From the NCBI RefSeq assembly GCF_029167365.1, contig NZ_JARFNM010000001.1, positions 1,046,001-1,110,000 on the forward strand: DNA of 64,000 bases, written 5' to 3'. Positions 23,421 to 47,478 of this stretch are shown piece after piece. The DNA is from Amygdalobacter nucleatus (GTDB lineage Bacteria; Bacillota; Clostridia; Saccharofermentanales; Fastidiosipilaceae). The notes beneath the pieces were generated by a model. It ran no database searches, was not told the origin of the DNA, and was given only the letters and a program-made list of their open reading frames with translations. The translations under genes and the position numbers were made by a program. Each line of letters opens with the position of its first letter. Within the stretch, counting starts at the first letter, position 1.

Positions 23421-23452
23421 ATGTTGTAAATCTCCCTTACGCTTTTCGCTTA

Positions 23453-23461
23453 ATTATAGCA
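23453..23461 (-). promoter_or_regulatory. extended -10 promoter of the rplI operon
   Basis: Minus strand TGCTATAAT, a perfect extended -10, 33 nt before the rplI ATG. It directly abuts the terminator of the PTS genes upstream. No clear -35. Confidence 0.5.
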
Positions 23462-23498
23462 AAAGATGCAGAGTCTGTGAAAATGACGCTGCATCTTA
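23462..23498 (-). terminator. terminator of the PTS IIC-IIB pair
   Basis: Minus strand AAGATGCAG and CTGCATCTT arms with partial inner pairing, followed by a short TTTT run that runs into the rplI promoter. Confidence 0.6.
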
Positions 23499-23529
23499 TT
23501 AAGCTTAAAGTAGCTTATAATGCTGATAA

Positions 23530-23847
23530 TTAGCTTTCCATCAATTTAATGGCGGCCTTCAGAACTTTTTCACCGTTCATCATGCCATAGTCCATCATGT
23601 TTATTACAGCTAACTTGATTGGCCGATTGCCGATAACCTCAGCGAACTTCGGTTCAACGTAACGAATCTGCGGACCTACTAGAACAACTGAAATATCATT
23701 ATCTTTCTTCAGGCGATCCACGCCTTCCGGCTCAGAAACGGCAAATATCTCAAACTCCTTGCCCATCTCCTTAGCGGCCTTATCCATCTTAGTTACTAAC
23801 AAGCTTGAACTCATGCCACCTGAGCAAACTAACATGATTTTCTTCAT
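23530..23847 (-). CDS. PTS IIB component, lactose/cellobiose family
   Basis: 105 residues, typical of the Lac-family IIB. The phosphorylated cysteine is Cys8 in VCSGGMSSS. IIB passes phosphate from IIA to the sugar bound by IIC. Its ATG overlaps the stop of the IIC gene by four bases (ATGA), so the two are translationally coupled. No IIA gene is next to this pair; the IIA at 32.1 kb, in the neighbouring operon, may serve both. The substrate cannot be read from the sequence. Confidence 0.92.
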   Translation of the reverse strand: MKKIMLVCSGGMSSSLLVTKMDKAAKEMGKEFEIFAVSEPEGVDRLKKDNDISVVLVGPQIRYVEPKFAEVIGNRPIKLAVINMMDYGMMNGEKVLKAAIKLMES

Positions 23848-25127
23848 TCTTTCTCACCAGCTTCTTCTAATTTCTTGTAATCTTTCTCAAGTTCCATAAC
23901 AAATGGCGCATAAATCAAGATGTCAATTACAATCAACACAATCTGCAAGATTGAACCCATGATGCTGCCTGTAGCAAAGAAGCCACTTAAAATCGGCGGC
24001 ATTGTCCAAGTTGGCATTGCGCAAGTTCTAGGCACAATCCCAATTGCCATCGTTGTATAAGTGATTATAGCATTAACAATTGGTGTGAAAACGAATGGGA
24101 TGAGTAACTTGAAATTGAGCACAACTGGAACGCCAAAGATTGTCGGTTCATTGATATTGAATATACCAGGTGTAAAAGTAATTGGTGCTAATGCCTTAGC
24201 TTGCTTACTTGCATTCTTGCGTCTTGCTAAAATAGCCAAAACAATAACCAAACCTAATGTAGCACCGCCACCACCGATGTAAACAAAGTTCATCATGAAT
24301 GGGTTTGTAACAATGTGTGGTAATGGCAAACCAGCTTTAACAGCTTCCATATTAGCATTGATATTCTCTAACCAAGTTGGGCCAAAGAATGTATGAACAG
24401 TATCAGCACCATGTACACCTACGAACCAGAACAAACCGTTCAAACCAGCAACTACGCAAGTGCCTAACAAGTTATTCGTGAACAGACGTACAGGTTTTGA
24501 GAGAATTTGTTGAATCAAAATATGCATATTTGGCAAGCCGAAAGCGTCCAAAGTAGCAAAAATTGCGAGCCAACCACTGATAATCACAATACCAGGAATG
24601 ATACCTGAGAAGCTACGTGCAACTGCCGGTGGTACAGTTTCTGGTAAAGTAATCTGAATATTACGTTTGATAAACCAAATGTAAACTCTAGAGCTGACCA
24701 AAGCTACGACCAATGCAACGAACAAACCACTTGCGCCTAAGAATTGAGTAGGTACACCAGCACCAGCCTCACCTTTGACAAACGGTGTTAATGTGATAAA
24801 GGAACCAACTGAAATAATACCAGCTGACAAACCATCAATATCATGCATTTTAGCATATTCCATAGCCACGCCAAAGGCAGCAATCAAGCTGACTAGGCCA
24901 AAGCTACTGTCAACACCTTTCCACAAGTAGCCTACGATACCTGCGTCCTTCAACAAGTCTTTCCATGCTTGAATTGGGAAACTTGCAATAATCATTAGAA
25001 GAGAACCTGCCATGATAAGCGGCATACTCATAGCTAAACCGTTACGTACAGCTAACAAAATCTTATTCGTAGCCAACTTATAAGCAACCGGCGCCAGCTT
25101 TTCTTCCATGAAATTTTTGAGATTCAT
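23844..25127 (-). CDS. PTS IIC permease, lactose/cellobiose family
   Basis: 427 residues with about ten hydrophobic helices. IIC is the membrane channel that binds and translocates the sugar. Family signatures include GVHGADTVHTFFGP, IGGGGATLGLV and GIFNINEPTIFGVPVVLN; the last carries the conserved NEP-Glu motif of the substrate site. The start at 25127 has GGGGGA eight nt upstream; 20 upstream codons in frame are probably untranslated. It resembles the IIC at 29.9 kb but is clearly diverged. A promoter with a dyad precedes it. Confidence 0.92.
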   Translation of the reverse strand: MNLKNFMEEKLAPVAYKLATNKILLAVRNGLAMSMPLIMAGSLLMIIASFPIQAWKDLLKDAGIVGYLWKGVDSSFGLVSLIAAFGVAMEYAKMHDIDGLSAGIISVGSFITLTPFVKGEAGAGVPTQFLGASGLFVALVVALVSSRVYIWFIKRNIQITLPETVPPAVARSFSGIIPGIVIISGWLAIFATLDAFGLPNMHILIQQILSKPVRLFTNNLLGTCVVAGLNGLFWFVGVHGADTVHTFFGPTWLENINANMEAVKAGLPLPHIVTNPFMMNFVYIGGGGATLGLVIVLAILARRKNASKQAKALAPITFTPGIFNINEPTIFGVPVVLNFKLLIPFVFTPIVNAIITYTTMAIGIVPRTCAMPTWTMPPILSGFFATGSIMGSILQIVLIVIDILIYAPFVMELEKDYKKLEEAGEKE

Positions 25128-25192
25128 ACGTAAAAATCCCCCGTCTACACAATAGATACCCTGCTCTAACCCGAAAGCAGCGTTCAAGTAAT

Positions 25193-25232
25193 ATATTAAT
25201 ACAATATCACAATTTGTGCAATAATTTGTGAT
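25193..25232 (-). promoter_or_regulatory. promoter and candidate operator of the second PTS pair
   Basis: Minus strand TTGCAC (25221-25216), 17 nt, TAATAT (25198-25193). The -35 lies within an imperfect dyad with ATCACAA and TTGTGAT arms (25206-25232) that also holds AATTTGTG twice, 12 nt apart. TTTGTGCAA is shared with the palindrome at the glycosylasparaginase promoter, suggesting a common regulator. Confidence 0.45.
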
Positions 25233-25308
25233 TTTTTCCGCCTGTATTTGTACTCATTTTACAAGTGAAAGCTCATGAATCTAAGCAAAATAGCAATTTT
25301 GCAAGCAT

Positions 25309-25337
25309 TAAAAAAGGACAGTATATTGTACTGTCCT
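25309..25337 (-). terminator. terminator of the peptidase-cutC unit
   Basis: Minus strand AGGACAGTA, short loop, TACTGTCCT, then TTTTTT, 25 nt past the cutC stop. Confidence 0.85.
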
Positions 25338-25361
25338 AAATAAGAACTTGTCCTACACATA

Positions 25362-26105
25362 TCAATCAAAACTAGCAATAACTACTTTTAGTTCCTTAGC
25401 TAACTGATAGTCAGTGCAAATATAACTCGTCGGTGCATTTGGATAAACGGCATAAGACACATGCAAGTTACTTGTTGGGTCTGATTTGGTCGACTTACAA
25501 GAAGCGTGTAAATACTGTACATGCGTTTTCTCTAACAAGCTCTTCGCGTTGCTTGCCTTAACTCCAGCTCCTGCCACAATTTCAATTTGCTTGCCATACT
25601 TAGCTTGCAAACTTGCTAATAAGTCAGCTCCTTGTAGAGCTGTTTCAGATTGCCCACTTGTAAGTAAGCGGTCGACCTTGAGTGCAATCAATGTTTTAAT
25701 CGCAGCTGCAGCATCTTTGGTATTATCAAAAGCACGATGAAAAATAGCTTTCTTGCCAGCTTGATGAATTAACTCTACAAATTCTTTAGTCCGTTTTTCA
25801 TCGACCTCGAAATCTTCAGTCAAAAATCCAAAGACTATACCGTCTATATTCTCCTTGCAAAAGATATGTAAGTCCGCTAGCATGCTAGCATATTCAGATT
25901 CAGAATAGAAAAAGCCACCAGCTCTAGGTCTAAGCATGCAATTTTTTTCAATCTGCAAATTGTCAGCAATCAATCTAACCAAACCAAAAGATGGCGTCAA
26001 TCCGCCTAGATCTAAGGCGGCATTAATCTCTACACTTGTGTAAGCAAGCTCGCTAGCTATCTTAGCACCTGCATACGACTCAACACAGATTTCACTCTTA
26101 ATCAT
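25362..26105 (-). CDS. cutC: CutC family TIM-barrel protein
   Basis: 247 residues, standard CutC length. Motifs of the family are seen: MLRPRAGGFFYS, GFLTEDFEVD, FHRAFDNT and RLLTSGQ. CutC was named for copper homeostasis, but its biochemical activity is not established. No copper transporter or chaperone gene is nearby. Here it is the last gene of a run of peptidases that follows a PTS and a glycosylasparaginase, which fits a metabolic role better than copper handling; this is inference. The ATG at 26105 has GGAGC seven nt upstream; a GTG lies one codon earlier. Confidence 0.9.
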   Translation of the reverse strand: MIKSEICVESYAGAKIASELAYTSVEINAALDLGGLTPSFGLVRLIADNLQIEKNCMLRPRAGGFFYSESEYASMLADLHIFCKENIDGIVFGFLTEDFEVDEKRTKEFVELIHQAGKKAIFHRAFDNTKDAAAAIKTLIALKVDRLLTSGQSETALQGADLLASLQAKYGKQIEIVAGAGVKASNAKSLLEKTHVQYLHASCKSTKSDPTSNLHVSYAVYPNAPTSYICTDYQLAKELKVVIASFD

Positions 26106-26122
26106 CACTAAAGCTCCAAATT

Positions 26123-27235
26123 CTAAGGTACAATCGTCTCTACTTCATTCAGCTTATACAAAGCATAAGCATAAATTTCGATGCACTTTTTAAGATCAGC
26201 TAGATCAAACCATTCGTTTGGCAAATGCGCAATTCCGTTTTGACCTGGGAAGGATGGACCAAATGGAATGACAGTTTCGCACTTATGTGCATAAGTCATA
26301 CCAGTTGTTGTCGTCATCTTTGTCTTTGTCTGCATCACTTCATCATAAGCTGCTTGTAAAACAATGGCATTTGTTGAAAGTGGATTCTTTAAGGCCCATT
26401 TATCGAAGTGGACAAGTTTGACATTAAGTTTTTTAGCCGTCTGCTTTAACTGCTCAATTAAAGCGTCAATATCACAAACTGGAGTTGATAGACTGAATCT
26501 TGCGCCAATGCCCTCAGCTGTATTAACTAAGCGTACCCCACGCACGACCATCTGACCAAAGTGTTCATCTTTGCAACTTACGCCCAAGCTCTTACCTGTA
26601 CCATCAAGATTTAAGAGATACTTGTTGTAAAATTCTGTAAACACATCAGCTGGACCTGTAATTTCAACAATTGCACGCCCACGTTCACCATAGATAGCTG
26701 GGAACTTATTGTCTGGCACAAAGCCCATAACAGGTGCTTTGACATGCTCTAGGTAATACTCAATATCCGACATACCACTTTCTTCATCTGCACCAAAGAT
26801 GATTCTAATTGGTCGCTTAGGCACAACGCCTAAATTCTTAAGAATCAGCAAAGCATAAAAAGCTGCCATAGATGGACCTTTGCTGTCCAACGCACCACGG
26901 CCGTACATACGATTATCAACAATCTGAGCCGCGTATGGTGGATACTGCCAGCCTACGCCCTCTTCAACTACATCAAGATGGCAGAACATTCCCACATAAT
27001 CTTCGCCAACGCCATACTGACCATACACCATATGATAATCAGCATTACCGGTACTTAATCCCTCGCGTTCACATAATTCAAGGGCCTTATCCAAAACCTG
27101 CTTACAAGCTGGACCATAAGGTGCATTAGGCTCAGCTTTCGCTTTTTTACTTGGAATTTGAATCAAGCTCTTATAGTCAGCAATTAATTGGGGATATAAG
27201 CGCTCTAATTCAGCTCTAATCTCATCAATCATCAT
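26123..27235 (-). CDS. M20 family dipeptidase-like metallopeptidase
   Basis: 370 residues, shorter than the usual 440-470 of PepV/Sapep dipeptidases. Metal ligands are in place: His and Asp in CHLDVV, Asp in GRGALDSKGP, Glu pair in GADEESG, Asp in FVPDNKFP and a C-terminal His in GIAHLPNEW. Such enzymes split dipeptides in the cytoplasm. The lid domain looks reduced. The ATG overlaps the stop of the preceding M42 gene by four bases, so translation is coupled. Together with the M42 enzyme it would complete breakdown of small peptides. Confidence 0.88.
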   Translation of the reverse strand: MMIDEIRAELERLYPQLIADYKSLIQIPSKKAKAEPNAPYGPACKQVLDKALELCEREGLSTGNADYHMVYGQYGVGEDYVGMFCHLDVVEEGVGWQYPPYAAQIVDNRMYGRGALDSKGPSMAAFYALLILKNLGVVPKRPIRIIFGADEESGMSDIEYYLEHVKAPVMGFVPDNKFPAIYGERGRAIVEITGPADVFTEFYNKYLLNLDGTGKSLGVSCKDEHFGQMVVRGVRLVNTAEGIGARFSLSTPVCDIDALIEQLKQTAKKLNVKLVHFDKWALKNPLSTNAIVLQAAYDEVMQTKTKMTTTTGMTYAHKCETVIPFGPSFPGQNGIAHLPNEWFDLADLKKCIEIYAYALYKLNEVETIVP

Positions 27236-28275
27236 AACTTCAAAATCTCCTCTAATGTATTTGCTTTAAATTCTTTAATAATCCACGAGCATAACTCAAT
27301 ACAAGCTGCTAAATCATCGGTATTGACAACACTATGATTGCAATGCATATAGCGAGCTGGAATACCTAAAGACATATTGACGATACCACCCAAACTCTTA
27401 TGAATATTACCTGAATCTGTACCGCCTCGATTGAAAACTGAATATTGATATTTGATATTATGCTTTTTACATAAGCCCTCTACCCATTTCAATAAGCTAC
27501 GATTGGGCAAAGTATTAGAATCAATGCAACAGAGAATAACACCGCCACCCAAAGTGACGCCATTATCATCAAACAGCGTATCACCAGCTAAAGTTGCGTC
27601 TAAAGCAAAGGCTAGGTCTGGTCTAACCATATCAGTAACTGTTCTCGCGCCTCTTAGACCTGGCTCTTCTTGCGAAGAAAAAGCCCAATACAAATTGTTT
27701 TCATGTGGCAATTTTTGCCCTAAAACTTCTAAGCCAACATAGCAACCGCTTCGATCATCAAAGGCCTTATTCAAAACATATTTCGGATTAGCAAGCGGCA
27801 TATAATCAGCCTTTGGGCAGCACATATCACCTATTTTGATACCTAATTTCGTGACATCATCAGCATCTATACCTAAATCAAGATAAATACAGTCAGGTTT
27901 AACTGTGTACTTTTTGTCAGCTTCGGGCATAGCATGTGATGATGGACTTGAAATTACACCTGTTAAAACACGCCCATCACTTGTCTCCAAGGTACATAAA
28001 TCACCAACAACTAGATGTGGCCAAATACTCCCAAATGGATGCAAGCGTAAGAAACGGCCACAAATTTCTTCCACAATGAAGCCTACTTCGTCTTGATGCG
28101 TGCAAAACATCAACTTAGGTAAGTTAGCATCTTCTTGTTCTGGCCATGCAATCACGCAATGTAAACCATCTATTTTATAATTCGTTAATTTTTGTTTAAG
28201 GTACTCAACCATATGCCTTTCCCTGCTAGAAATGGCACGCACACTTGATACTTCCTCTAACATTTTGAGATTCAT
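27232..28275 (-). CDS. M42 family aminopeptidase (metal site intact)
   Basis: 347 residues, typical of M42 glutamyl-aminopeptidase/TET enzymes. These form large hollow dodecamers and trim peptides from the N-terminus. The bimetal site is complete: His60 in CTHQDEVG, Asp in KAFDDRSG (about 173), the Glu pair in SQEEPG (203-204), Asp in FALDA (226) and a late His in CNHSVVNTDD. Its ATG overlaps the stop of a diverged paralogue by four bases. A GGAGG lies upstream. Pairing with a paralogue lacking these ligands suggests a mixed complex. Confidence 0.92.
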   Translation of the reverse strand: MNLKMLEEVSSVRAISSRERHMVEYLKQKLTNYKIDGLHCVIAWPEQEDANLPKLMFCTHQDEVGFIVEEICGRFLRLHPFGSIWPHLVVGDLCTLETSDGRVLTGVISSPSSHAMPEADKKYTVKPDCIYLDLGIDADDVTKLGIKIGDMCCPKADYMPLANPKYVLNKAFDDRSGCYVGLEVLGQKLPHENNLYWAFSSQEEPGLRGARTVTDMVRPDLAFALDATLAGDTLFDDNGVTLGGGVILCCIDSNTLPNRSLLKWVEGLCKKHNIKYQYSVFNRGGTDSGNIHKSLGGIVNMSLGIPARYMHCNHSVVNTDDLAACIELCSWIIKEFKANTLEEILKL

Positions 28276-29282
28276 ACGTTAAATGGCCTCCCTACTTTGT
28301 GAAGCTCAAGCTCCAATAAGAAATGCTTGAGGAAATTCACCAAGGCTTTAATATCGCGTTTATCTGCCACGACATTCGCTGTGCCCAAATTGCGCATAAC
28401 GATACCCAAAGCTAAAGTTGGTGTACCACTCAAAGTCTTGTGAATAAATGAACCATCGTTAGCTAGCAAGCCTAAATAAGGTTGGACAGCATATTTAGAG
28501 GTAACATAATCCAACAACTGATGATCTGGCAACATCTGGCGATCATAACAAGACACAACTACACCTGAACCTAAGTCAAGACCTGATTTGGAGCCATGGG
28601 CCTCAAAGGCTGTTAAAGCAATAGCTAAGTTAGGTCTTGTCACATAAGTAGCTGTCTGAGTACCTCTGAAGCCAACTGTCGATTGAGCTACAGCACCGAT
28701 AGATAACTGATAGTCCAAAGTTGTAGCTTGTAATTCCCTTAGTAATTCAAGTTCGACAGCTTGTAAGACTTTTTGATTTAACGAACGACCAACAAATGTA
28801 TGATCTGTTTCAACTAATTCACTTGCGAAGCTAACTAAATCACCTGGCAAAATCTTTTTCGAATCACTTGGATCGCATAACTCGATAAACAGATCGCTCT
28901 CTTTAACTGAAGCTGGCACATGCTCTAAAAGCTTACAATCAGTTGAAATAACAGCTGGATACAAGCTACCATCTCTAGCTAAAATTTGAACTCGCTGGCC
29001 TAATAAAACAGCCGGCGACTGCGCTTCTAAACAGACAAAGCTGAGTCTGCCGTTTGGAAAGACACGCTCAACCATCAACCCAATTTCATCCATTGGGCAA
29101 GCAACAAGTACTTTCTCCAGTTCTTTGTCAGCCTTGTTAGTTTCTGCAAAAACAGAATACAAGCCGTCCTTGTTAATTTGATAGCCAAGCTCTGAATATT
29201 TTTCAGAAAGATATTGCTGCAATTGTTTTTCTGCACTTGAGACAGAATTAATCGCATAAATCGTTGCTAATTCATCAAGCAT
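28272..29282 (-). CDS. M42 peptidase-like protein lacking metal ligands (putative pseudoenzyme)
   Basis: 336 residues aligning end to end with the next gene. The fold signatures remain, but the catalytic residues do not. THQDEVG is CPMDEIG (62-68), so the first His is lost. AFDDRSG is replaced by RSLNQKV. SQEEPGLRG is AQSTVGFRG, removing both Glu. ALDA is ALTA. The final His motif CNHSVV is GTANVV. It cannot bind the usual two metals. The frame is intact and of full length, so it is probably a maintained structural or regulatory partner rather than decay. An AGAGG site precedes the ATG. Function is inferred. Confidence 0.85.
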   Translation of the reverse strand: MLDELATIYAINSVSSAEKQLQQYLSEKYSELGYQINKDGLYSVFAETNKADKELEKVLVACPMDEIGLMVERVFPNGRLSFVCLEAQSPAVLLGQRVQILARDGSLYPAVISTDCKLLEHVPASVKESDLFIELCDPSDSKKILPGDLVSFASELVETDHTFVGRSLNQKVLQAVELELLRELQATTLDYQLSIGAVAQSTVGFRGTQTATYVTRPNLAIALTAFEAHGSKSGLDLGSGVVVSCYDRQMLPDHQLLDYVTSKYAVQPYLGLLANDGSFIHKTLSGTPTLALGIVMRNLGTANVVADKRDIKALVNFLKHFLLELELHKVGRPFNV

Positions 29283-29304
29283 TTCACTTACCTCTTATTC
29301 TCTT

Positions 29305-29337
29305 TATAAAACAAAAACTGCCTATAAGCAGTTTTCG
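29305..29337 (-). terminator. internal terminator between the GrdB-like gene and the M42 pair
   Basis: Minus strand AAAACTGC, loop, GCAGTTTT, then TGTTTT. The next gene starts only about 25 nt downstream with no room for a full promoter, so this is probably a partial terminator that lowers expression of the peptidase genes. Confidence 0.7.
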
Positions 29338-29342
29338 TTTTG

Positions 29343-29867
29343 CTAATAGCAGATGTCTTGTTCAAGCTGAGCTAGCTTGTCGGGGTGATTAAGTTTGTAA
29401 TCAAGCCAGGTAGTTAGATTATCAAAGCTATCACTCAAACCAACGCCGCCCTTCTTTGGCATCTTAATAATCGCTATCTTGTCTTTGAACTCAGTGATCA
29501 AATCATCATTCTCAGCTGCCATCATCGTCACAACTGGAATTTCACTATTAGTCTGCACAGATTCAGTAACTAAAGCTGACATCTTAGCATAATCGGCAAA
29601 ATTGAAGCAGGGACCACAGACAACCACATCAGGGTTGATTTTCTTAACCATAGCTGTCAACTTTTGCACAACTTCTGTTTCGTGCTCGACAAAATATTGG
29701 TTACCACAATACAAAGTAGCTAGAACTTGAGCACCAACTTTTTGAAGATGAGGTTCTAGCATCAGGGCGGAGCCAACTCCGCCCTTAGCTAAGGTCAAGC
29801 CGACATTAGGGTTACCTTTACCCCCTGCACCAGCCAAACCTTGATCAAAAATTAATACAACACGCAT
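29343..29867 (-). CDS. GrdB-like protein (N-terminal part of glycine/betaine reductase component B family)
   Basis: 174 residues. It resembles the first part of GrdB, the selenoprotein of glycine, sarcosine and betaine reductases. Visible family features are ATLYCGNQYFVEHE, VVCGPCFNFADYA (GrdB: GPAFNAGRYG) and IPVVTMMAAEN (GrdB: IPxVTGMxxEN). Full GrdB is about 436 residues with a selenocysteine later on. Here the frame ends at TAG, not TGA, and a hairpin follows, so there is no selenocysteine. Short stand-alone relatives exist; their role is unknown. The ATG at 29867 has GAAAGG six nt before it. It sits directly after the PTS IIC gene. Confidence 0.7.
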   Translation of the reverse strand: MRVVLIFDQGLAGAGGKGNPNVGLTLAKGGVGSALMLEPHLQKVGAQVLATLYCGNQYFVEHETEVVQKLTAMVKKINPDVVVCGPCFNFADYAKMSALVTESVQTNSEIPVVTMMAAENDDLITEFKDKIAIIKMPKKGGVGLSDSFDNLTTWLDYKLNHPDKLAQLEQDICY

Positions 29868-29896
29868 AATCAACCTTTCACTTAATCCAACTTAAG

Positions 29897-31240
29897 TCAT
29901 ACAGCTAGATCATCGAATGATAGATCATCTAACTCATCAGTCTTATTTGCATTAAGTTGTTCTTCCTCCAAATACTTCTTGTCAAGTAATTTCAAGAATG
30001 GGAAGTAAATAGCCATATCAACTACAAGGAGCACAGCTTGCAAAATAACAGCTGTAAATGTACCTGTTACGAGATAGCCTGAGAAGAAAATTGGTGTAGT
30101 CCATGGTAATTGCACACCAGAAGTGATTGGAATGAAGCCAACCAAAGTAGCAACCATTGAAATAACAGTATTAATAACTGGTGTAAAAATGAATGGTACT
30201 AACATCAATGGGTTCAACACAATTGGCAAGCCGAAGATGATTGGTTCGTTGATACCAAAAATAGCTGATGGTAAGGACAAACGACCGAGCATCTTAATGC
30301 GGTTAGATTTACCAATAAAGGCCATCATGATGACTAGACCTAAGGTTGAACCGCCACCACCAAAGTTACAGAAGAAGTCTGAGAAACCAGCGGTGAAGAT
30401 ATTCTTCATAGCTAAGCCAGCTTGAGCAGCTTCATAGTTTTCCAAAGTTAAAGCCTTATGAATAGGTCCAAAGATAGTATTTGTAACAGCTGGGCCGTTA
30501 ATACCGAAGAACCAGAACAAGGTTGACAAGAACTGATAGATAACTTCAAACAAATTATTCTTGCCTAAACCAACCAATGGAGCTTGCAATACTTGATAAA
30601 TAAAGGTATGAGCATAGGCATAAGATGTGAAATTGAAAATGATGCTGATAGCTAAGAAAATCACCATAACAATTGCAGCTGGAATCAAAGCGGCGAATGA
30701 ATCCATAACTGCCGGTGGCACACCATCAGGTAACTTAATGACTAACTTACGCTTGTAAGCCCAGGCAAAAATTCTAACAGACAGAATTGCGACCAACATT
30801 GACAAGAAAATGCCAGCTGTACCGAAATTGCTGAATGAGAAGCCACGGAAAGCCTTGCTAGTCTCATTCACAAAATTAGGATGAGCCTGTGGTGTAATGA
30901 TCAAGAATGAAACCAAAGCAACCAAGGCAGCTGCAATCTTATTTGTCAGTTTTAATTCGCTAGCATAGCAATAAGCGATAGACAAAACAGCCATCAAAGA
31001 AACACAGTCAAAGGCAACTGTTGTTACACGGCCAAGGAAGGATGACCAATCAGCACCAAAGATGCCAGCCATGAATTCTTCATAGCCATTGATTGGGAAA
31101 TTGGAAATCAACAAGAAAATTGAGCCGACGATCACAACTGGCACAGAAACCATGAAACCATCACGAATGGCGCTCAAGACCTTGTTTTTGGACAATGAGT
31201 TAGCTATAGGACCTAATATACGGTCAAGTTCTTTTAACAT
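29897..31240 (-). CDS. PTS IIC permease, lactose/cellobiose family
   Basis: 447 residues with about ten hydrophobic segments. Signatures of the Lac-family IIC are FGINGPAVTNTIFGP, FGGGGSTLGLV and AIFGINEPIIFGLPIVLN, including the NEP substrate-site motif. The C-terminal tail is acidic. Its ATG overlaps the end of the IIB gene by seven bases. With IIA and IIB upstream in the same operon it forms a complete PTS importer that phosphorylates its sugar during uptake. The substrate may be a glucosamine- or glucose-based disaccharide or conjugate, but sequence cannot tell. Confidence 0.92.
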   Translation of the reverse strand: MLKELDRILGPIANSLSKNKVLSAIRDGFMVSVPVVIVGSIFLLISNFPINGYEEFMAGIFGADWSSFLGRVTTVAFDCVSLMAVLSIAYCYASELKLTNKIAAALVALVSFLIITPQAHPNFVNETSKAFRGFSFSNFGTAGIFLSMLVAILSVRIFAWAYKRKLVIKLPDGVPPAVMDSFAALIPAAIVMVIFLAISIIFNFTSYAYAHTFIYQVLQAPLVGLGKNNLFEVIYQFLSTLFWFFGINGPAVTNTIFGPIHKALTLENYEAAQAGLAMKNIFTAGFSDFFCNFGGGGSTLGLVIMMAFIGKSNRIKMLGRLSLPSAIFGINEPIIFGLPIVLNPLMLVPFIFTPVINTVISMVATLVGFIPITSGVQLPWTTPIFFSGYLVTGTFTAVILQAVLLVVDMAIYFPFLKLLDKKYLEEEQLNANKTDELDDLSFDDLAV

Positions 31241-31563
31241 TTTGCTGTTCCTTTCTTAATTGCCAATAAAGCACGCTTCAAGACGCGCTCACCGTTCATC
31301 TGACCATAATCGTCAGGATCGATAACGAAAATTGGCATACCATAACAACCATATTTCTCTTGCACTTTTTCATAAATGTGCTTAACTTGAGGTCCTAATA
31401 ACACAGCATCTGGTTTGTACTGTGTGATAATCTCCTCAAGCTGAGTTTGTGAAAATGCTTTGACCTCCAAAGGCAATTTGTTAGCATCAGCTACCTTCTG
31501 CATTCTAGAAGCTAACAAGCTTGTCGACATGGCATTGTCACAAAACAAATAAATCCTTTTCAT
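31234..31563 (-). CDS. PTS IIB component, lactose/cellobiose family
   Basis: 109 residues. The phosphocysteine is Cys8 in LFCDNAMSTS. Other family parts are AVLLGPQVKHIYEK and the end DPDDYGQMNGERVLKRAL. Divergence from the other IIB in the window (VCSGGMSSS) suggests a different partner IIC rather than a recent duplication. Overlaps the IIC gene downstream. Confidence 0.92.
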   Translation of the reverse strand: MKRIYLFCDNAMSTSLLASRMQKVADANKLPLEVKAFSQTQLEEIITQYKPDAVLLGPQVKHIYEKVQEKYGCYGMPIFVIDPDDYGQMNGERVLKRALLAIKKGTAKC

Positions 31564-31582
31564 TTTTCTCCCCCTTCCTTGT

Positions 31583-32128
31583 TCAAAGCTGACAAACTTT
31601 AGTTTTGGCTAAATAGTCTTGCAATGAGCCACTGAATTCTTTACTTTTTAGAGCTAAATAAGCTGAAACGATCAAAGAAACGCCGCTTACTACAACTAAA
31701 AAATTAGCAACATATTGTGTATCATAATTGGCTAATAGCATCCGCCAATCAAAGATGAATAACGAAAATTGGCTACTTAAATAACCCAATAAAAAAAAAG
31801 TCACGAGATAGCGCTGAGCCAACGTAACTAAACTTGGCTTACATTCGTTATTTAATGTAACTATCTCTAACCTAAGCAACATCATCATCGGTGTTTGCGC
31901 TCTTTTGGATAGATGTGGAACTAAAACGAAATAAGCAAAGGCAACAAGCAGGCATAATAACATCTCTAAAAGTAGATATGTAGTTGTATATCTAACAACT
32001 TGGCCATTACTATCCCCCACACCTAAGCTAAAAGCTAAACCGCGCGAACCTAAGTTCAAAAAAATCGCCGATAAATACCAATCTAATCCGAAAGCTAAAA
32101 GACGCTTAAGCAATATTCCACCTTGCAT
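31583..32128 (-). CDS. RDD-like integral membrane protein
   Basis: 181 residues with four hydrophobic segments. The opening LLKRLLAFGLDWYLSAIF and the later FVLVPHLSKRAQTPMMMLLRLEI match the RDD family pattern, in which an Arg and Asp pair lies in the first helices. RDD proteins have no settled function; some affect ion or solute transport. It lies between IIA and IIB, inside the PTS operon, which is an unusual place. An AGGATC site precedes the ATG. It may assist the transporter or be an unrelated passenger. Confidence 0.6.
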   Translation of the reverse strand: MQGGILLKRLLAFGLDWYLSAIFLNLGSRGLAFSLGVGDSNGQVVRYTTTYLLLEMLLCLLVAFAYFVLVPHLSKRAQTPMMMLLRLEIVTLNNECKPSLVTLAQRYLVTFFLLGYLSSQFSLFIFDWRMLLANYDTQYVANFLVVVSGVSLIVSAYLALKSKEFSGSLQDYLAKTKVCQL

Positions 32129-32144
32129 AAGTTGATCCTACTAA

Positions 32145-32462
32145 CTACTTCTTAGCTAGCAATGTGCACATCGTAGCTAATGTTTCTTCACTGATTGTTT
32201 TGAAAATTTCAGCTGAATTCAACTGATCTTCTGCGTGCATCAACAGCAAAGAAAAAGGAATCTTCTCGCCATCAGCTTCCTTTACAAGAAGCTCACGATG
32301 TGCTTCATGCGCTTTCATAAAAGCAGGATTTGCTTCATTAATCAAGCTCTCAGCTTTGGCAAAATCAGCTTCACGCGCACAACGCATCGCCTCAATATAA
32401 TTAGATTTAGCTGTTCCAGCTTGAGCTATAATCTGGCAAAAAATCAATTCTAAATCGTCCAT
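32145..32462 (-). CDS. PTS IIA component, lactose/cellobiose family
   Basis: 105 residues, all-helical Lac-family IIA. The phosphorylated His is His76 in LLLMHAEDQL. It receives phosphate from HPr and passes it to IIB Cys8. It is the only IIA in the window, so it may serve both IIC-IIB pairs. GGGAGAG precedes the ATG. Second gene of the operon after the glycosylasparaginase. Confidence 0.94.
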   Translation of the reverse strand: MDDLELIFCQIIAQAGTAKSNYIEAMRCAREADFAKAESLINEANPAFMKAHEAHRELLVKEADGEKIPFSLLLMHAEDQLNSAEIFKTISEETLATMCTLLAKK

Positions 32463-32505
32463 AAATTAACTCTCCCAAAAATATTTTATTATTTTTTATT
32501 ATATT

Positions 32506-33477
32506 TTATAACATCTCCAAAGGTGCCGTACGCGTCCGAATATAATCTTCCAGCCACTCTTCACTGGCAACTTTATAAGTTGTATGACCCTCTTCCACCT
32601 TGCAGACATAAACAGTCGCTGCCTGTTTAGATGAAGCATAAACAAAGGAGAAATTGTTGATATTGGTTGCTACGCCATATTCTCCATGCTTATTCAATGC
32701 TACAACTGAAATATCGCCAGCTGTGCCATGATTAATTTCACGTAGACGCTTATCTAAGCGATTAACTACTAGCTCACAAGCTGCCTGTGGTGTTAAACCA
32801 GCTTCCATCTGTCGAACAATTTCATAAGACACAAGACCTTTCATAATGTCTTCGCCTAGACCTGTCGCCGTAGCAGCGCCAACTCTTGAATCAGCATAGA
32901 AGCCAGATCCAACTAAAGGGCTATCGCCAACACGCCCTGCTCGTTTCATGAACAAACCAGAGGTAGAAGTACCGACACAAATTTTGGCTTGTTTGTCCAA
33001 GCAAGCCATACCGACAGTATCATGCCCAATATATGGTTTTAAGACTGATGCCTGTTGCGCCAAATTCTCTTTCTTCAAACGGTTATAATAGTGAATCTTT
33101 GCACGCTGTGTCAGCATATTTTTGCGCTCAAACCCAAATTTATGAGCATAGGCTTCAGCTCCTGCGCCTACTAACACATTATTATATTTTTCAAAAGATA
33201 AACGTCGAGCAATGGCAATTGGATTTGCATAATCACGTAATGCTCCAACAGCTCCAACGGTTAAATCATTACCGTCCATGAAGCCTGAATCAAGCTCAAC
33301 TTCCATATTCTCATTAGGTAAACCGCCATACCCGACAGACTTAAAATAAGGATAATCCTCAGTCTCTTTGATTGCAGTTTCGATAGCTTCGCCAGCATCT
33401 TCACCTTCAGCAAGTTCGGCACATGCTTTAGTAATACCTTCTAAAGCCATTCTCCAAGTTCCAATTATCGCCCACAT
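32506..33477 (-). CDS. N4-(beta-N-acetylglucosaminyl)-L-asparaginase (glycosylasparaginase)
   Basis: 323 residues. This N-terminal nucleophile hydrolase cleaves the GlcNAc-Asn bond of N-glycan remnants. The self-cleavage site is HDTVGM with Thr154 as nucleophile. GTSTSG (169-174), GRVGDSP (181-187, Arg182 and Asp185 for substrate carboxylates) and an early Trp in GTW (6-8) match human AGA. VGAVGALRDYANPI is also typical. No signal peptide is seen, so it is cytoplasmic, unlike the lysosomal and periplasmic enzymes. It is the first gene of the PTS operon, with AAAAGGAG upstream. A role on an imported, perhaps phosphorylated, glycosyl-asparagine is inferred. Confidence 0.9.
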   Translation of the reverse strand: MWAIIGTWRMALEGITKACAELAEGEDAGEAIETAIKETEDYPYFKSVGYGGLPNENMEVELDSGFMDGNDLTVGAVGALRDYANPIAIARRLSFEKYNNVLVGAGAEAYAHKFGFERKNMLTQRAKIHYYNRLKKENLAQQASVLKPYIGHDTVGMACLDKQAKICVGTSTSGLFMKRAGRVGDSPLVGSGFYADSRVGAATATGLGEDIMKGLVSYEIVRQMEAGLTPQAACELVVNRLDKRLREINHGTAGDISVVALNKHGEYGVATNINNFSFVYASSKQAATVYVCKVEEGHTTYKVASEEWLEDYIRTRTAPLEML

Positions 33478-33503
33478 CTAACTTTCTCCTTTTCTCGCTC
33501 TAA

Positions 33504-33532
33504 ATTATACCGATTGGCTAATTATTTTGCAA
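33504..33532 (-). promoter_or_regulatory. promoter of the glycosylasparaginase-PTS operon
   Basis: Minus strand TTGCAA (33532-33527), 17 nt, TATAAT (33509-33504), about 27 nt before the ATG. Confidence 0.75.
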
Positions 33533-33535
33533 GTA

Positions 33536-33556
33536 TTTGCACATATTTTGTGCAAA
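33536..33556. promoter_or_regulatory. perfect palindromic operator candidate
   Basis: TTTGCACA, five-base spacer, TGTGCAAA. The eight-base arms are perfectly complementary. It lies four bases upstream of the -35, a position suited to an activator or a repressor. The half-site TTTGTGCAA recurs at the second PTS promoter. Confidence 0.6.
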
Positions 33557-33677
33557 TTTGAACGGGGATTTTGAGTATTTTTGGTTTTCTCAAATTAAAT
33601 CAAAATTCTTAGAATTTAGAAAGCTGACATGCGTGCTTAATGTCTAATGTACCTTATTATAAAGCATAATAAGGGTA

Positions 33678-33709
33678 TAAAAAAGAGCAGCTAATAAATT
33701 GCTGCTCCT
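33678..33709 (-). terminator. terminator of rpsF-ssb-rpsR
   Basis: Minus strand GAGCAGC, loop, GCTGCTC, then TTTTTT, 25 nt past the rpsR stop. Confidence 0.88.
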
Positions 33710-33733
33710 TATCATCTACTAAAGTAAATAACC

Positions 33734-40770: not shown

Positions 40771-41739
40771 TTATTTTTGCCGTTCCTTCTCCATGGCTTG
40801 TAATTTCACTTCATACTCAGCCATCTCACGATCATTAGCAAACACTAAATGATTCTCTCTAATATGCCGTAACTTAGGTTTCTCACCAGAAAAGTCACGT
40901 CCCTCTTCATCATACACAACAAGCTCTTTGGACTTCTCAATTCTTGGATCAGGCATTGGCACAGATTGCAAAAGTGAACGTGTGTATGGATGTAAAGGAT
41001 ATGCAAACAATTCTTCAGTTGGTGCAATCTCAACAATTCTGCCCTTGAAAATAACCGCAATCCGATCACTGAAGTAACGCACAACTGATAAGTCATGGGC
41101 GATAAAGAGATAGGTCAAGCCTTTCTCGCGCTTGAACTTGTTCATAAAGTTCAAAATCTGAGCACGAATTGAAACGTCCAAGGCTGAAATTGGCTCATCG
41201 GCAATGATGAAATCAGGTTCCATAACCATCGCACGGGCAATACCAACACGCTGTCTTTGACCACCTGAAAATTCATGTGGATAACGTGACTTATGTTCAG
41301 GTAACAAGCCAACAGTTTTAAGTGCTTCATCAACCTTACGGCTACGCTCCTCCTTGTCTTTGTAAAGCTTGAAGTTATCCAAGCCCTCAGCAACACAGTA
41401 GTCGATTGTCGCACGCTCATTCAATGAAGCTGCTGGATCTTGATAAATCATCTGAATTTCACGCACAAGTCTATGTCTATCTTGCTTTGACAACTTACCA
41501 TTGATTTTTTGACCCTTGTAGATAATATCGCCATCTGAAGTTTCATTTAGACCAATGATTGCTCGGCCAATTGTCGTCTTACCAGAGCCTGACTCACCAA
41601 CCAAGGAAAACGTCTCGCCACGGTAAATTTGGAAATTACAGTCTTTAACAGCTCTAAATCTTTTTTTATTGTTAGTGAAAGTAACTTCAAGATGTTTAAC
41701 ATCTAATAATACTTCTCTCTCGCCATTAGTCTCGCTCAC
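40771..41739 (-). CDS. oppF: oligopeptide ABC transporter ATP-binding protein OppF
   Basis: 322 residues. Cytoplasmic ATPase that pairs with OppD to drive peptide import. Walker [11 protein letters not shown]-loop and signature [14 protein letters not shown], Walker [14 protein letters not shown] and switch His AHDLSVV are present. The oligopeptide-type C-terminal region ([15 protein letters not shown]) follows. The start is GTG with AAGGAGG eight nt upstream; it overlaps oppD by 14 bases. The gene order oppA-B-C-D-F is complete. Confidence 0.95.
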
Positions 41740-42799
41740 TGTAAACGCCTCCTTTTGATGTCAGATTCACCATTTTCTCATGTAAATTACGAATTAATTC
41801 TGGCTTTTCCACCTTTGGTGCTCGCTCATCTAGGAGCCAAGTCTTAGCAAAGTGCGTTTCTGAGACTTGGAACATAGGTGGTTCCTCTTCAAAGTCAATC
41901 TCCATCGCATAATTACTACGTGGGGCAAATGCATCACCTTTAATCTTGTTGAACAATGAAGGAGGTGTACCTTTGATAGCAAAGAGTTCATCTTCCTTTT
42001 CGCCTAACTGTGGCAATGAAGATAAGAGGCCCCATGTATATGGATGACGTGAATCATAGAAGACTTCCTCAACCGTACCATATTCAACCAACTGACCAGC
42101 ATACATAACAGCAACTGTATCAGCAACGTTAGCAACAACACCCAAGTCATGTGTAATGTAAATAGTTGTGAACTTGTATTCCTCTGCCAAATCCTTAATC
42201 AAAGCGATAATCTGAGCTTGAATTGTAACATCCAAAGCAGTTGTTGGTTCATCACAAATCAAAATACGTGGACGGCAAGCTAGTGCAATTGCAATAACAA
42301 TTCTCTGACGCATACCACCAGAATACATGAACGGATATTCATCATAACGCTTCTCAGCATTCTTGATACCAACACGCTGCATCAACTCAATTGCCAACTT
42401 TTTAGCTTCAGCTGGAGTCTTGTTCTGATGCTTAATGATAACTTCTGAAATTTGGTAGCCAATAGTTCTAACTGGGTTCAATGATGTCATTGGATCTTGG
42501 AAAATCGTGGCAATTTTCTTACCTCTAATTTTCTCCCATTCAGCATCCTTCTTTAGCTTAGCAATGTCCTCACCCTCAAAGATGATTGAACCTTTGGAAA
42601 TCATACCGTTGATGTCAAGCATACCGGTGAATGTTTTGGTGAAAACGGACTTACCGGAACCAGATTCACCAACGATAGCTACGACTTTACCTTCTTCAAA
42701 ATCAAAGGAGATATTACGGATAGCTGTCAATACGCGGTCACGAACTCTGAATTTAACTTCCAAATCTTTAACTGACAAAATAATATTTTTTTCGCTCAT
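41726..42799 (-). CDS. oppD: oligopeptide ABC transporter ATP-binding protein OppD
   Basis: 357 residues. Partner ATPase of OppF. Walker [10 protein letters not shown], signature [15 protein letters not shown], Walker [14 protein letters not shown] and switch His THDLGVV. The C-terminal oligopeptide/dipeptide extension contains [13 protein letters not shown], but I do not see the Cys cluster that often binds iron-sulfur in this region. GTAAGGAG precedes the ATG. Confidence 0.95.
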
Positions 42800-42809
42800 A
42801 GCCTACTCC

Positions 42810-43745
42810 TTACACCATGTGGTTACGTGGATCACTGGCGTCAGCCAATGTCTGACCAACTATGTACAGAGAAACTGAAATCAAAGCTGTCAAACAAACT
42901 GGGATCAAGAACAAATATGGTGCAGATTGCATGTACAGTGAATGTTCTTGCACAATACGGCCTAATGAAGCCTCAGCTTGGGTAAGACCAACACCGATAA
43001 AGCTCAAGAAAACTTCATATGAGATGAAGGAAGGTATATCACGGGAAAGAGATGTTACCAATACAGAGACCAGATAAGGCAAGATGTTATGCATAACAAT
43101 CTTTGTCGTGGAAGAACCTAATGTTCTTGATGCTAAGTTGTACTCACGGTCACGAATTATCATAACCTGCACACGAATGAAGTAAGCAACACCAATCCAA
43201 GATGTAACAGACAAGGCAAATATTAACTGTGGAATACCAGCACCAGCTACGAATGCGATAACCATGACGATCAAGGTAAATGGCACGTTTGAAATAACGT
43301 TGTAAACCTGAATCATCACTTTATCAACTCGCTTGGAGAAGCCCCAGAACATACCAACGATAACACCGATAACGTTCGTAATAATCGTTGCACTAAAAGC
43401 GATGAACAAGCTCGTTCTAGCACCGGCCCAAAGCATAGCGAAACAATCACGGCCGACATCATCTGTACCAAACAAATATTTGGAATTAGGTGTAATGAAG
43501 TGCATGCTACGGTCATTAATGTAACGTTGATCCAAATGATCATAGTGTGAAATCATTGGATGAATGATTGACGTCAAGATAATCGCAATAACAATAAGCG
43601 ACATGAAAATAGCTAACTTGGAAGAAAAGAACTTACGGAAAACACTCTTCCAATAAGAATATTCCGGAGCAGCAATCTTTTCAGAAATCGAATCATCGAC
43701 TTTGACAAATTTAAATTTATTCTCTAAATTCTTTTGCTCAGTCAT
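42810..43745 (-). CDS. oppC: oligopeptide ABC transporter permease OppC
   Basis: 311 residues. Inner-membrane permease with about six helices. An N-terminal cytoplasmic leader with the OppC-type PEYSYWKSVFRKFFSSKLA precedes the first helix. GTDDVGRDCFAMLWAGARTSL is the family signature and EVFLSFIGVGL is part of the coupling region. GGAG precedes the ATG; it starts three nt after oppB. Confidence 0.94.
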   Translation of the reverse strand: MTEQKNLENKFKFVKVDDSISEKIAAPEYSYWKSVFRKFFSSKLAIFMSLIVIAIILTSIIHPMISHYDHLDQRYINDRSMHFITPNSKYLFGTDDVGRDCFAMLWAGARTSLFIAFSATIITNVIGVIVGMFWGFSKRVDKVMIQVYNVISNVPFTLIVMVIAFVAGAGIPQLIFALSVTSWIGVAYFIRVQVMIIRDREYNLASRTLGSSTTKIVMHNILPYLVSVLVTSLSRDIPSFISYEVFLSFIGVGLTQAEASLGRIVQEHSLYMQSAPYLFLIPVCLTALISVSLYIVGQTLADASDPRNHMV

Positions 43746-43748
43746 GGC

Positions 43749-45230
43749 TTATTCTCCTTTCTTCGTATCAAGCGAAATTCTTGGGTCAACAATGGTCATC
43801 AAAACATCACCAAGCATAACAGAGAAAATTGACAACGAAGTAAATATAAATGTCAAGGTAATGATCATATTGTTATTAGCGGCTGTAATAGCATCTGGTA
43901 ACATCTTACCCATGCCAGGAATTGAGAAAACGCTCTCAGTGATAACAGCACCAGAAATAGCTAAGATAACTGAACTTGGCAAGCCATTGACGAATGGAAT
44001 AATCGCATTCTTCAAAATATGGTTACGGAAAATCTCCTTCTTTGACAAGCCCTTAGATTTAGCAAATTTGACATAATCAGAATTAGACTGATCGATCATA
44101 TAACGTCTCAACCACATCATGATACCTGGCGTCATCATCAAAGCCAAAATGACAATAGGCATGATATAAGATTTTATGTTACCAAAACCAAGTTGTGGGA
44201 ACAAATCAGGTAATCCTAACTTGTGGCCAAAAAATTTCATCAAGAAAATAAAGGCCAAGGACGGAATTGCAATCAGTAGGTTGATATAAACAATACCAAT
44301 CTTATCCTGTAACTTGCCTTTGTTGCGCGCCATGGAAATACCAGCAGGAATAGCAATCAAGTAAGCCAAAATCAGTGCCAAAACACCAAAAATGTATGAT
44401 GTTTCAATCATAGATGGTGAATCGTAGGCCAATCTGCAATCTGCATAGTTATCACTAAACTTAGCCTTGTCAAGCTCATCTAGAGTGTATTTGTAACGGC
44501 ATGTATCTTGCAAAATTGGGCTGCTCATCTCCTTGCCTGAAGGCAAAACTTGCTTGAATGGCTTGTTCTTGCCTTGACGTGTACTGATAACTTCTAATGT
44601 ATCAATACCAGAGAAGCTTGGATATGACTTACCAAAATTTAAACGAATAATATTTTGATGAATAAATGGGAATTGCTTGTTGAAGTATAACTGATACTTG
44701 TATTCACAACCAGAACAAATTAAACCCCAGTTGCCAGCATTACCACCCAAACTATAAGAACGTTTCAAGTCCTTGTTATTTGGATCATTAACTTTATATA
44801 TGTTGTCAACTACGATTAATTTACTTAAGTAACGCAAAATAAGTTCATAGGCGCGATATTCGCGGTATGCTACGACTTGTCCTTGCATAGAATCAGCATA
44901 GTCAAGTTCATGAATTGTATAACCTTCCTTTGCAAATTCTGCAATTACACGTTTAGACTCTTCACTACCAGCTTTTTTACATTCTTCGAAGTTCTTCGAT
45001 TTAATCGAACACATCTCAGCTTGTGTATACATAGTCTGATAACCTAGTTCTTTTAAGACATTCATCTTATAAAGATACAATTGGTTACCTGTCAACTTAG
45101 TAATAACCGTATCTTTAGCAAAGATGTTAGATCTAGGTATCAAGGTATAAACCATGGTAACAACAATTGCTACAACCACAAAAACTGCAACAATGGATTT
45201 GAGCAATCTTGTTAAAATATACTTCTTCAT
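43749..45230 (-). CDS. oppB: oligopeptide ABC transporter permease OppB with large external loop
   Basis: 493 residues; ordinary OppB is about 310. The first helix (MKKYILTRLLKSIVAVFVVV) is followed by an extra 200-residue extracytoplasmic region before the helices resume near ETSYIFGVLALILAYLIAI. This region has several Cys (CSGCEYK, CRYKY, CRLAY) that may form disulfides. The permease end contains GLPSSVILAISGAVITESVFSIPGMG. The loop may contact the binding protein. I choose ATG at 45230 after GGGAG; 15 codons upstream are probably not translated. Confidence 0.92.
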   Translation of the reverse strand: MKKYILTRLLKSIVAVFVVVAIVVTMVYTLIPRSNIFAKDTVITKLTGNQLYLYKMNVLKELGYQTMYTQAEMCSIKSKNFEECKKAGSEESKRVIAEFAKEGYTIHELDYADSMQGQVVAYREYRAYELILRYLSKLIVVDNIYKVNDPNNKDLKRSYSLGGNAGNWGLICSGCEYKYQLYFNKQFPFIHQNIIRLNFGKSYPSFSGIDTLEVISTRQGKNKPFKQVLPSGKEMSSPILQDTCRYKYTLDELDKAKFSDNYADCRLAYDSPSMIETSYIFGVLALILAYLIAIPAGISMARNKGKLQDKIGIVYINLLIAIPSLAFIFLMKFFGHKLGLPDLFPQLGFGNIKSYIMPIVILALMMTPGIMMWLRRYMIDQSNSDYVKFAKSKGLSKKEIFRNHILKNAIIPFVNGLPSSVILAISGAVITESVFSIPGMGKMLPDAITAANNNMIITLTFIFTSLSIFSVMLGDVLMTIVDPRISLDTKKGE

Positions 45231-45245
45231 AAATGCTCCCTTTGA

Positions 45246-45287
45246 TATAAAAGCAAGGGGCGAGTCATATGACACAACCCCTAGCTT
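45246..45287 (-). terminator. hairpin between oppA and oppB, probable attenuator or mRNA stabiliser
   Basis: Minus strand AAGCTAGGGG and CCCCTTGCTT arms (nine of ten pairs) with an inner TCATATGA, then TTTTAT. Such hairpins after the binding-protein gene usually make oppA more abundant than the permease genes. Confidence 0.6.
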
Positions 45288-45311
45288 CGTGCTGAATACT
45301 AATGATACTAC

Positions 45312-47276: not shown

Positions 47277-47478
47277 AGTTACCTCCTTATTTCGTTTCAA
47301 AATAATTGTAGAAATTTTAATAAATTCAAAACTTTCTTGCAAGCATTAAACGAATTTTCAAAGATAAATTAGACAAAAGTTACTAAACGGTGTAACAAAA
47401 TAGCTAATAGCTTAGGCAAATTGTTGAGATCAGCATATATTGATGTGCGCTTGCCTTAACAAATAAAGCCTGTTGGCA

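Follow-up and report, generated by a model that had tools for sequence, protein, structure and literature searches.

An operon of Amygdalobacter nucleatus predicted to serve in the uptake and cytoplasmic cleavage of glycosyl-asparagine

Introduction

A stretch of 64,000 nucleotides of the Amygdalobacter nucleatus genome (contig NZ_JARFNM010000001.1, positions 1,046,001 to 1,110,000; the whole of it is called here the window) contains a set of genes that is headed by an amidase of the glycosylasparaginase (AGA) class and that encodes a phosphotransferase system (PTS) of the Lac family, peptidases, a stand-alone GrdB-like protein and CutC (Table 1). What would a sugar transporter, an amidase and peptidases accomplish when placed together in one operon? 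The answer is very probably the utilization of glycoamino acids in the manner of the ega locus of Enterococcus faecalis, with uptake of N-acetylglucosaminyl-asparagine (GlcNAc-Asn) or a close glycosyl-asparagine by the PTS and cleavage in the cytoplasm.

From the observed gene content, neighbourhood, enzyme type, Enzyme I candidate, NagA and NagB, we infer the substrate, its phosphorylation and the fate of the products in A. nucleatus. The IIA, IIB and IIC components would import GlcNAc-Asn or a close glycosyl-asparagine and phosphorylate the sugar at C6. The cytoplasmic glycosylasparaginase would then cut the amide, yielding aspartate and 1-amino-GlcNAc-6-phosphate, and the latter would lose ammonia, spontaneously or with the aid of an enzyme, to give GlcNAc-6-phosphate, which would enter glycolysis via NagA and NagB. 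An M20 dipeptidase and the M42 enzyme that retains its metal site probably trim short peptides arriving with, or attached to, the glycosyl-asparagine. Much of this mechanism had been proposed in the original prediction, made from the sequence of the window; import by the PTS and cytoplasmic cleavage are supported by the neighbourhood, the enzyme type and the ega locus, while the part assigned to the peptidases stands less firmly.

Identity of the amidase

Comparison with solved structures placed the amidase nearest to bacterial glycosylasparaginases, with up to 171.8 bits, against at most 121.0 bits for isoaspartyl peptidases, and an isoaspartyl peptidase identity was judged unlikely on these scores. 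The nucleophile of glycosylasparaginases is the threonine that heads the beta chain. The beta chains of the solved enzymes align starting at Thr154 of the amidase, and Trp8 corresponds in the alignment to residue 11 of 1p4k; both residues we take to be important for catalysis and binding. Thr154 is kept in 81/81 aligned amidases (the window enzyme and those of the 80 loci described below), and Arg182, Asp185, Thr205 and Gly206, presumably substrate contacts, are kept across the same 81 PTS-type enzymes. The N-terminus, MWAIIGTW, leaves no space for a signal peptide, and the enzyme should therefore remain in the cytoplasm; a glycosylasparaginase devoid of signal peptide had been predicted, and both the N-terminus and the structure matches agree with it. 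The window amidase is thus assigned, as a prediction of activity from sequence, to the glycosylasparaginase type rather than to the isoaspartyl peptidases.

It is highly improbable that the amidase is instead an isoaspartyl peptidase or asparaginase, with a PTS that carries an ordinary beta-glucoside such as cellobiose and a neighbourhood that reflects general scavenging. Such enzymes belong to the same superfamily, and the sole NCBIfam match of the amidase is beta-aspartyl-peptidase; that match, however, reaches 110.6 of 567 bits, far under the cut-off, and solved glycosylasparaginases score 50 bits higher than solved isoaspartyl peptidases.

Arg9, next to Trp8, was considered as a reader of the 6-phosphate and dropped as unproved, as there are exceptions on both sides. 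Position 9 is arginine in most aligned amidases and serine in two from Lactobacillaceae with no nearby PTS gene (L089, L092); it is alanine in L084, where IIC is present, cysteine in L070, where the PTS is present, and threonine in L048, a short contig. Arg9 is also kept in PTS-free loci such as L024.

Conservation of the neighbourhood

A profile search of genome contigs with the amidase returned at least 572 confirmed relatives, and the best 80 loci were analysed. Companion genes were counted on the strand of the amidase, up to 10 kb on each side; many contigs are short, and the loci are not independent, since L073-L075 are three contigs of one strain and several genera recur. The original suggestion that a cytoplasmic glycosylasparaginase should co-occur with a Lac-family PTS was borne out, at least one PTS gene being present in 59 of the 80 loci (IIC in 54, IIB in 48, IIA in 46). 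M20 was the commonest companion (64 loci), followed by CutC (56), the GrdB-like gene (44), RDD (20) and M42 (12). When the count is restricted to the 52 loci whose contigs extend 8 kb or more to each side, a PTS gene was found in 39, M20 in 46, CutC in 39 and the GrdB-like gene in 35.

As a control, 39 other genes of the window were searched in the same 80 loci on either strand: 22 of them match no locus, and the commonest matches 23. M20, CutC, IIC, IIB, IIA and the GrdB-like gene (44-64 loci) exceed this maximum, whereas RDD and M42 do not. A chance neighbourhood is ruled out by this control together with the conserved gene order. In Anaerococcus degeneri (L054, NZ_JAGGLO010000007.1) the order AGA-IIA-RDD-IIB-IIC-GrdB-M42-M42-M20 is identical to that of the window, at 36-74% identity per gene and 74% for IIC, although CutC was not recognised in the 21 kb examined. 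Trees of IIC group the window with two Anaerococcus loci (support 0.98), and those of AGA with the same two Anaerococcus loci and two Erysipelotrichaceae loci (support 0.91). An amidase adjoining PTS IIC also occurs in Gammaproteobacteria (L096, L098 and L103, from Enterovibrio, an Oceanospirillales metagenome-assembled genome and Serratia); no similar DNA was found in E. coli genomes.

These counts bear as well on transport of an ordinary beta-glucoside. In its favour, the operon IIC scores over the cut-off for the lactose/cellobiose IIC subfamily, but PTS genes recur beside this amidase type in the 59 loci mentioned, and no beta-glucosidase gene lies in the operon.

Relation to known glycoamino-acid systems

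The EIIA that serves the E. faecalis ega system is presumably encoded outside the locus. Combret et al. 2024 (Res Microbiol 175:104169) reportedly assigned the use of GlcNAc-Asn to ega. They are said to have described uptake and phosphorylation by the PTS, then EgaG cleavage with aspartate and 6-phospho-glucosaminylamine as products, and mutants impaired in growth. As given in the passage of PMC11160706 on the locus, ega comprises a GntR regulator, a dipeptidase, EgaG, EIIB, EIIC and a putative-oxidoreductase pseudogene. It therefore shares with the window the glycosylasparaginase, the Lac-family EIIB and EIIC, the dipeptidase and the oxidoreductase gene, which would be a member of the GrdB-like family, the passage citing a selenoprotein B paper. 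It differs from the window in that the oxidoreductase is a pseudogene in OG1RF (same passage). The window operon, unlike ega, includes IIA, RDD, two M42 genes and CutC; a local counterpart of the GntR regulator of ega was not noticed among the ORFs inspected by eye.

The window locus belongs to a known kind of system, the match with ega being one of gene content and not of aligned E. faecalis proteins. A PTS for glycosyl-amino acids, regarded as a novelty in the original prediction, is hence not new, since ega has the same core genes. What is new here is the presence of the system in this lineage, a recurrent dead M42 copy and the link with CutC.

Similar annotated loci are found on plasmids of Enterococcus gilvus and Latilactobacillus curvatus, which were used as stand-ins for OG1RF_10933-10939. 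The L. curvatus plasmid has, as the window has, AGA, the GrdB-like gene, PTS IIC and the M20 dipeptidase side by side; it also carries GntR and, in contrast to the window, no CutC in the stretch. The asnA2 locus of L. sakei (LSA1689-LSA1693) fits this arrangement by locus numbers and annotations, as far as these appear in PMC3146418.

In Lacticaseibacillus casei, cleavage of GlcNAc-Asn by the cytoplasmic AsnA2 was shown by Becerra et al. 2020, the cytoplasmic location being itself inferred in the part of the paper concerned (PMC6960285). The alf-2 cluster of this species resembles the window in combining AsnA2 with the M20 peptidase PepV; it differs in having a major facilitator superfamily (MFS) permease, a fucosidase and the ROK kinase SugK, the substrate entering unphosphorylated according to the sections on the cluster (PMC6960285). 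The legend of Fig. 7 in that paper expands PTS among its abbreviations.

The L. casei cluster raises the alternative that the PTS carries a larger or modified conjugate, for example chitobiosyl-Asn, fucosyl-GlcNAc-Asn or a short glycopeptide, and that intracellular trimming precedes the action of the amidase. L. casei does import a fucosylated conjugate, but the compound enters by the MFS permease and not by a PTS, as the passages on its transport state (PMC6960285). Peptidases are regular companions of the amidase (M20 and M42 counts above), which favours this alternative; yet a glycosidase gene is absent from the operon by Pfam, and the name of the E. faecalis locus refers to unmodified GlcNAc-Asn. 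A larger substrate is on balance unlikely, and GlcNAc-Asn or a close glycosyl-asparagine is preferred.

Genome context

The assembly, of 3 contigs and 1.61 Mb in total, has a completeness of 95.5%. Searches with the PTS families PF02378 and PF02255 showed that both PF02378 IIC genes and the sole PF02255 IIA gene of the genome sit in the locus. PF02896 matches two proteins, one of which, of 545 residues, is the Enzyme I candidate. NagA and NagB score over their cut-offs; NagB is an intact frame of 233 residues, and its apparent internal stops fall past the point where this frame naturally ends.

Several observations weigh against uptake of glycosyl-asparagine by this PTS. The support comes from sequence and from analogy, so that function in A. 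nucleatus is a prediction. A same-strand PTS gene was not seen in 21 of the 80 loci, 13 of which have at least 8 kb on both sides. PF02896 is unspecific for Enzyme I and matches in all 14 control genomes. No regulator-like open reading frame (ORF), such as a GntR protein of the EgaR kind, was noticed between 20000 and 38000 by inspection of the ORFs by eye, with profiles run on part of them. Finally, a GH18 (PF00704) search of the genome gave no match, other endoglycosidase families and HPr lying outside the search; the organism may therefore depend on others for the release of GlcNAc-Asn.

A search of 38 close genomes, that of A. nucleatus among them, gave amidase matches in two more, with 44-45% identity; inspection by eye revealed no PTS gene within 1.5 kb of these matches. 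The best matches, at 53-63% identity, belong to other families of the phylum, which would fit horizontal transfer without proving it. The locus sits between rpsR and rplI (window 23421-33733). These two genes adjoin in 16 of 23 relatives, but within the same family in only 4 of 11, and a clean empty site is for this reason unproven.

Peptidases

The second M42 protein keeps His60, Asp173, Glu203, Glu204, Asp226 and His314, which we take to be the metal-site residues, whereas in the first these columns read P, N, S, T, T and N, so that all six are lost. Full-length first M42 copies of six other loci (L053, L054, L063, L065, L070, L071) keep 0-2 of the six; copies of less than 250 residues, such as the split copy in L060, were excluded. 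Hence the dead copy recurs, and perhaps it plays a structural partner role. Two findings weaken the original idea that attached peptides are finished by the peptidases: the metal ligands are missing from the first M42, and PepV is dispensable in L. casei, a pepV mutant having grown like the wild type on the fucosylated glycoamino acid according to the growth results given in PMC6960285.

CutC

The relation between CutC and the amidase was examined across 398 phylum genomes, that of A. nucleatus among them, a PTS-type amidase being defined by an E value below 1e-90. CutC is present in 8/8 genomes with such an amidase, versus 39/398 overall, and with the own genome excluded in 7/7 versus 38/397; the seven genomes are a small sample of three families. 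In genomes that have only distant Asparaginase_2 proteins, CutC was found in 0/6. In four of the seven, 2 kb or less separates CutC from the amidase; in one, CutC is found at 4.5 kb on the other strand, and in two it is elsewhere. Six of 130 plasmid records with an amidase match were also examined. On two Hymenobacter plasmids, one of them chosen because CutC appeared in the match table, the amidase, which by eye has an export signal, and CutC share a 4-base overlap; GH92 is encoded nearby on both plasmids and ROK on one of them. The Sphingomonas, Persicobacter, E. gilvus and L. curvatus plasmid loci have no CutC at the amidase.

CutC loci were inspected in genomes lacking the amidase, 26 of 31 such genomes having returned a locus, and 20 neighbours were picked by eye and then checked. 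NagA, over its cut-off, stands directly beside CutC in three loci (L142, L152, L155), a ROK protein is by CutC in four (L142, L162, L164 and, on the opposite strand, L168), NamZ is a gene or so away in three (L142, L151, L152), and a fructoselysine 6-kinase over its cut-off is near, on the opposite strand, in L153. Together these neighbours occur in 8 of the 26 genomes. Other loci have M81 or C69 peptidases or an AIRS protein resembling selenophosphate synthase, or show no informative neighbour, and one neighbour taken by eye for GH18 in L140 proved to be a leucine-rich-repeat protein. The loci relevant to CutC are window 25362-26108, L135, L136, L142, L152, L153, L155, L162, L164 and L168.

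The structural model of CutC (predicted local distance difference test, pLDDT, 96.7) matches six solved CutC structures with Z 27.7-36.4. Its next fold neighbours are MfnB (Z 21.3, 2.8 A over 216 residues), a hexulose-6-phosphate synthase fusion (Z 20.0, 2.4 A over 191) and phosphoribosylanthranilate isomerase (Z 19.3, 2.5 A over 186). All three are triosephosphate isomerase (TIM) barrels acting on phosphorylated substrates, and phosphoribosylanthranilate isomerase rearranges a phospho-glycosylamine.

We propose tentatively, as a doubtful but conceivable reading, that CutC, which carries the name 'copper homeostasis protein' all the way from bacteria to humans, acts as an enzyme in the metabolism of 6-phospho-glycosylamines and glycated amino acids. 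Given 1-amino-GlcNAc-6-phosphate, the amidase product, it would either release ammonia to leave GlcNAc-6-phosphate or channel the compound into an Amadori-type rearrangement. Such an activity would explain the NagA, ROK and fructoselysine 6-kinase neighbours and the likeness in fold to phosphoribosylanthranilate isomerase. The copper phenotypes of E. coli cutC have reportedly been reassigned to the MicL RNA, a point that the literature search did not confirm. In an alignment of 38 CutC sequences taken from amidase loci, no invariant or near-invariant column holds a cysteine that could bind copper, histidine or methionine ligands being conceivable. A published link of CutC with the amidase or with GlcNAc was not found in a search made largely at the level of listings, with most of the subscription literature outside it.

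Against a sugar enzyme stand the absence of CutC from 24 of the 80 amidase loci, due in part to contig ends, and the 31 of 38 other CutC genomes that have no amidase; moreover, a common fold, here from a model, proves no function. The cutC gene of L. sakei, LSA1440, falls outside the asnA2 locus numbers as they appear in PMC3146418, and 1-amino-GlcNAc is labile, so that an enzyme may not be required, as remarked in the relevant passage of PMC6960285.

The GrdB-like protein

All 44 loci that carry the GrdB-like gene also carry IIC, and the protein is therefore part of the PTS version of the pathway. NF041545 scores over its cut-off in 2 of the 398 phylum genomes, that of the window and G335, in both at no more than 3 kb from the amidase. 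Weaker matches occur in another 113 genomes and, among the matches listed, are mostly to frames of about 350 residues. The model (pLDDT 97.4) gave, with Foldseek against the PDB, one match under E 0.001, the F420-dependent Mtd, with a template modelling (TM) score of 0.40, from which no function follows. Weak sequence matches to GAPDH (E 0.0015 and above) were judged to be chance.

Organization of the locus

Twelve intact ORFs lie on the minus strand between rpsR and rplI, two genes identified by eye and from the gene order conserved among relatives. Every ORF of the original gene list is found intact at its position and strand. Families were assigned by Pfam and NCBIfam searches for the ten main-operon genes, where Pfam agrees with the earlier naming, and by PF02378 for the second IIC.

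Table 1. Features of the glycosylasparaginase-PTS locus in window coordinates
Feature	Position	Strand	Basis
Glycosylasparaginase (Asparaginase_2), predicted cytoplasmic, operon gene 1	32506..33477	-	Pfam 209.9 bits; sole PF01112 match in genome
PTS IIA, lactose/cellobiose family	32145..32462	-	Pfam, NCBIfam; sole PF02255 match in genome
RDD-family membrane protein	31583..32128	-	Pfam RDD 34.4 bits, cut-off 24.1
PTS IIB, lactose/cellobiose family	31234..31563	-	Pfam, NCBIfam
PTS IIC, lactose/cellobiose family	29897..31240	-	Pfam PTS_EIIC; TIGR00410 over cut-off
Stand-alone GrdB-like protein	29343..29873	-	Pfam GRDB; NF041545 227.6 bits, cut-off 175
M42 homologue lacking metal-binding residues (pseudo-peptidase)	28272..29282	-	Pfam M42, residue alignment
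M42 aminopeptidase with metal-site residues	27232..28275	-	Pfam M42, residue alignment
M20 dipeptidase, Sapep family	26123..27235	-	Pfam M20; TIGR01887 over cut-off
CutC-family TIM-barrel protein, final operon gene	25362..26108	-	Pfam CutC 173.2 bits; structure comparison
Second PTS IIC, separate unit	23844..25187	-	PF02378
Second PTS IIB, separate unit	23530..23847	-	ORF, comparison with first pair
TTGCAA-17-TATAAT promoter-like site	33532-33504	-	promoter scan
23-base inverted repeat, 9-base arms, just upstream of promoter-like site	33557-33535	-	
Terminator-like hairpin after CutC	25337-25315	-	terminator scan

The ten genes from 33477 to 25362 would form a single operon. The second IIC-IIB pair (25187-23530), whose IIC and IIB share 35.6% and 38.8% identity with their counterparts in the first pair, is present downstream as originally listed, but looks like a separate unit because the terminator-like hairpin parts it from CutC. 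The boundaries are weak evidence, since the scans barely exceed shuffled sequence (39 promoter sites versus 30.5, 14 terminators versus 9.2). No second copy of the full 23-base repeat was found in the window at up to 3 mismatches. A looser pattern has 4 matches in the window versus 0.78 expected, a number reached by 3 of 100 shuffles; these are the repeat itself on both strands, 25208-25221 and 59183-59197. The site at 25208-25221, before the second IIC, is a related TTGCACA-TTGTG sequence. It and the 23-base repeat may be candidate sites for a shared regulator encoded elsewhere. Upstream on the same strand (window 40771-47342) lie genes that by eye resemble a peptide ATP-binding cassette transporter, with two ATPases, two permease-like proteins and a lipoprotein.

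Conclusions

The locus adds a lineage to a widespread bacterial route for the consumption of N-glycoprotein scraps. Moreover, the company of its genes provides a testable enzyme hypothesis for two uncharacterised families, the stand-alone GrdB-like protein and CutC, the latter conserved up to humans.

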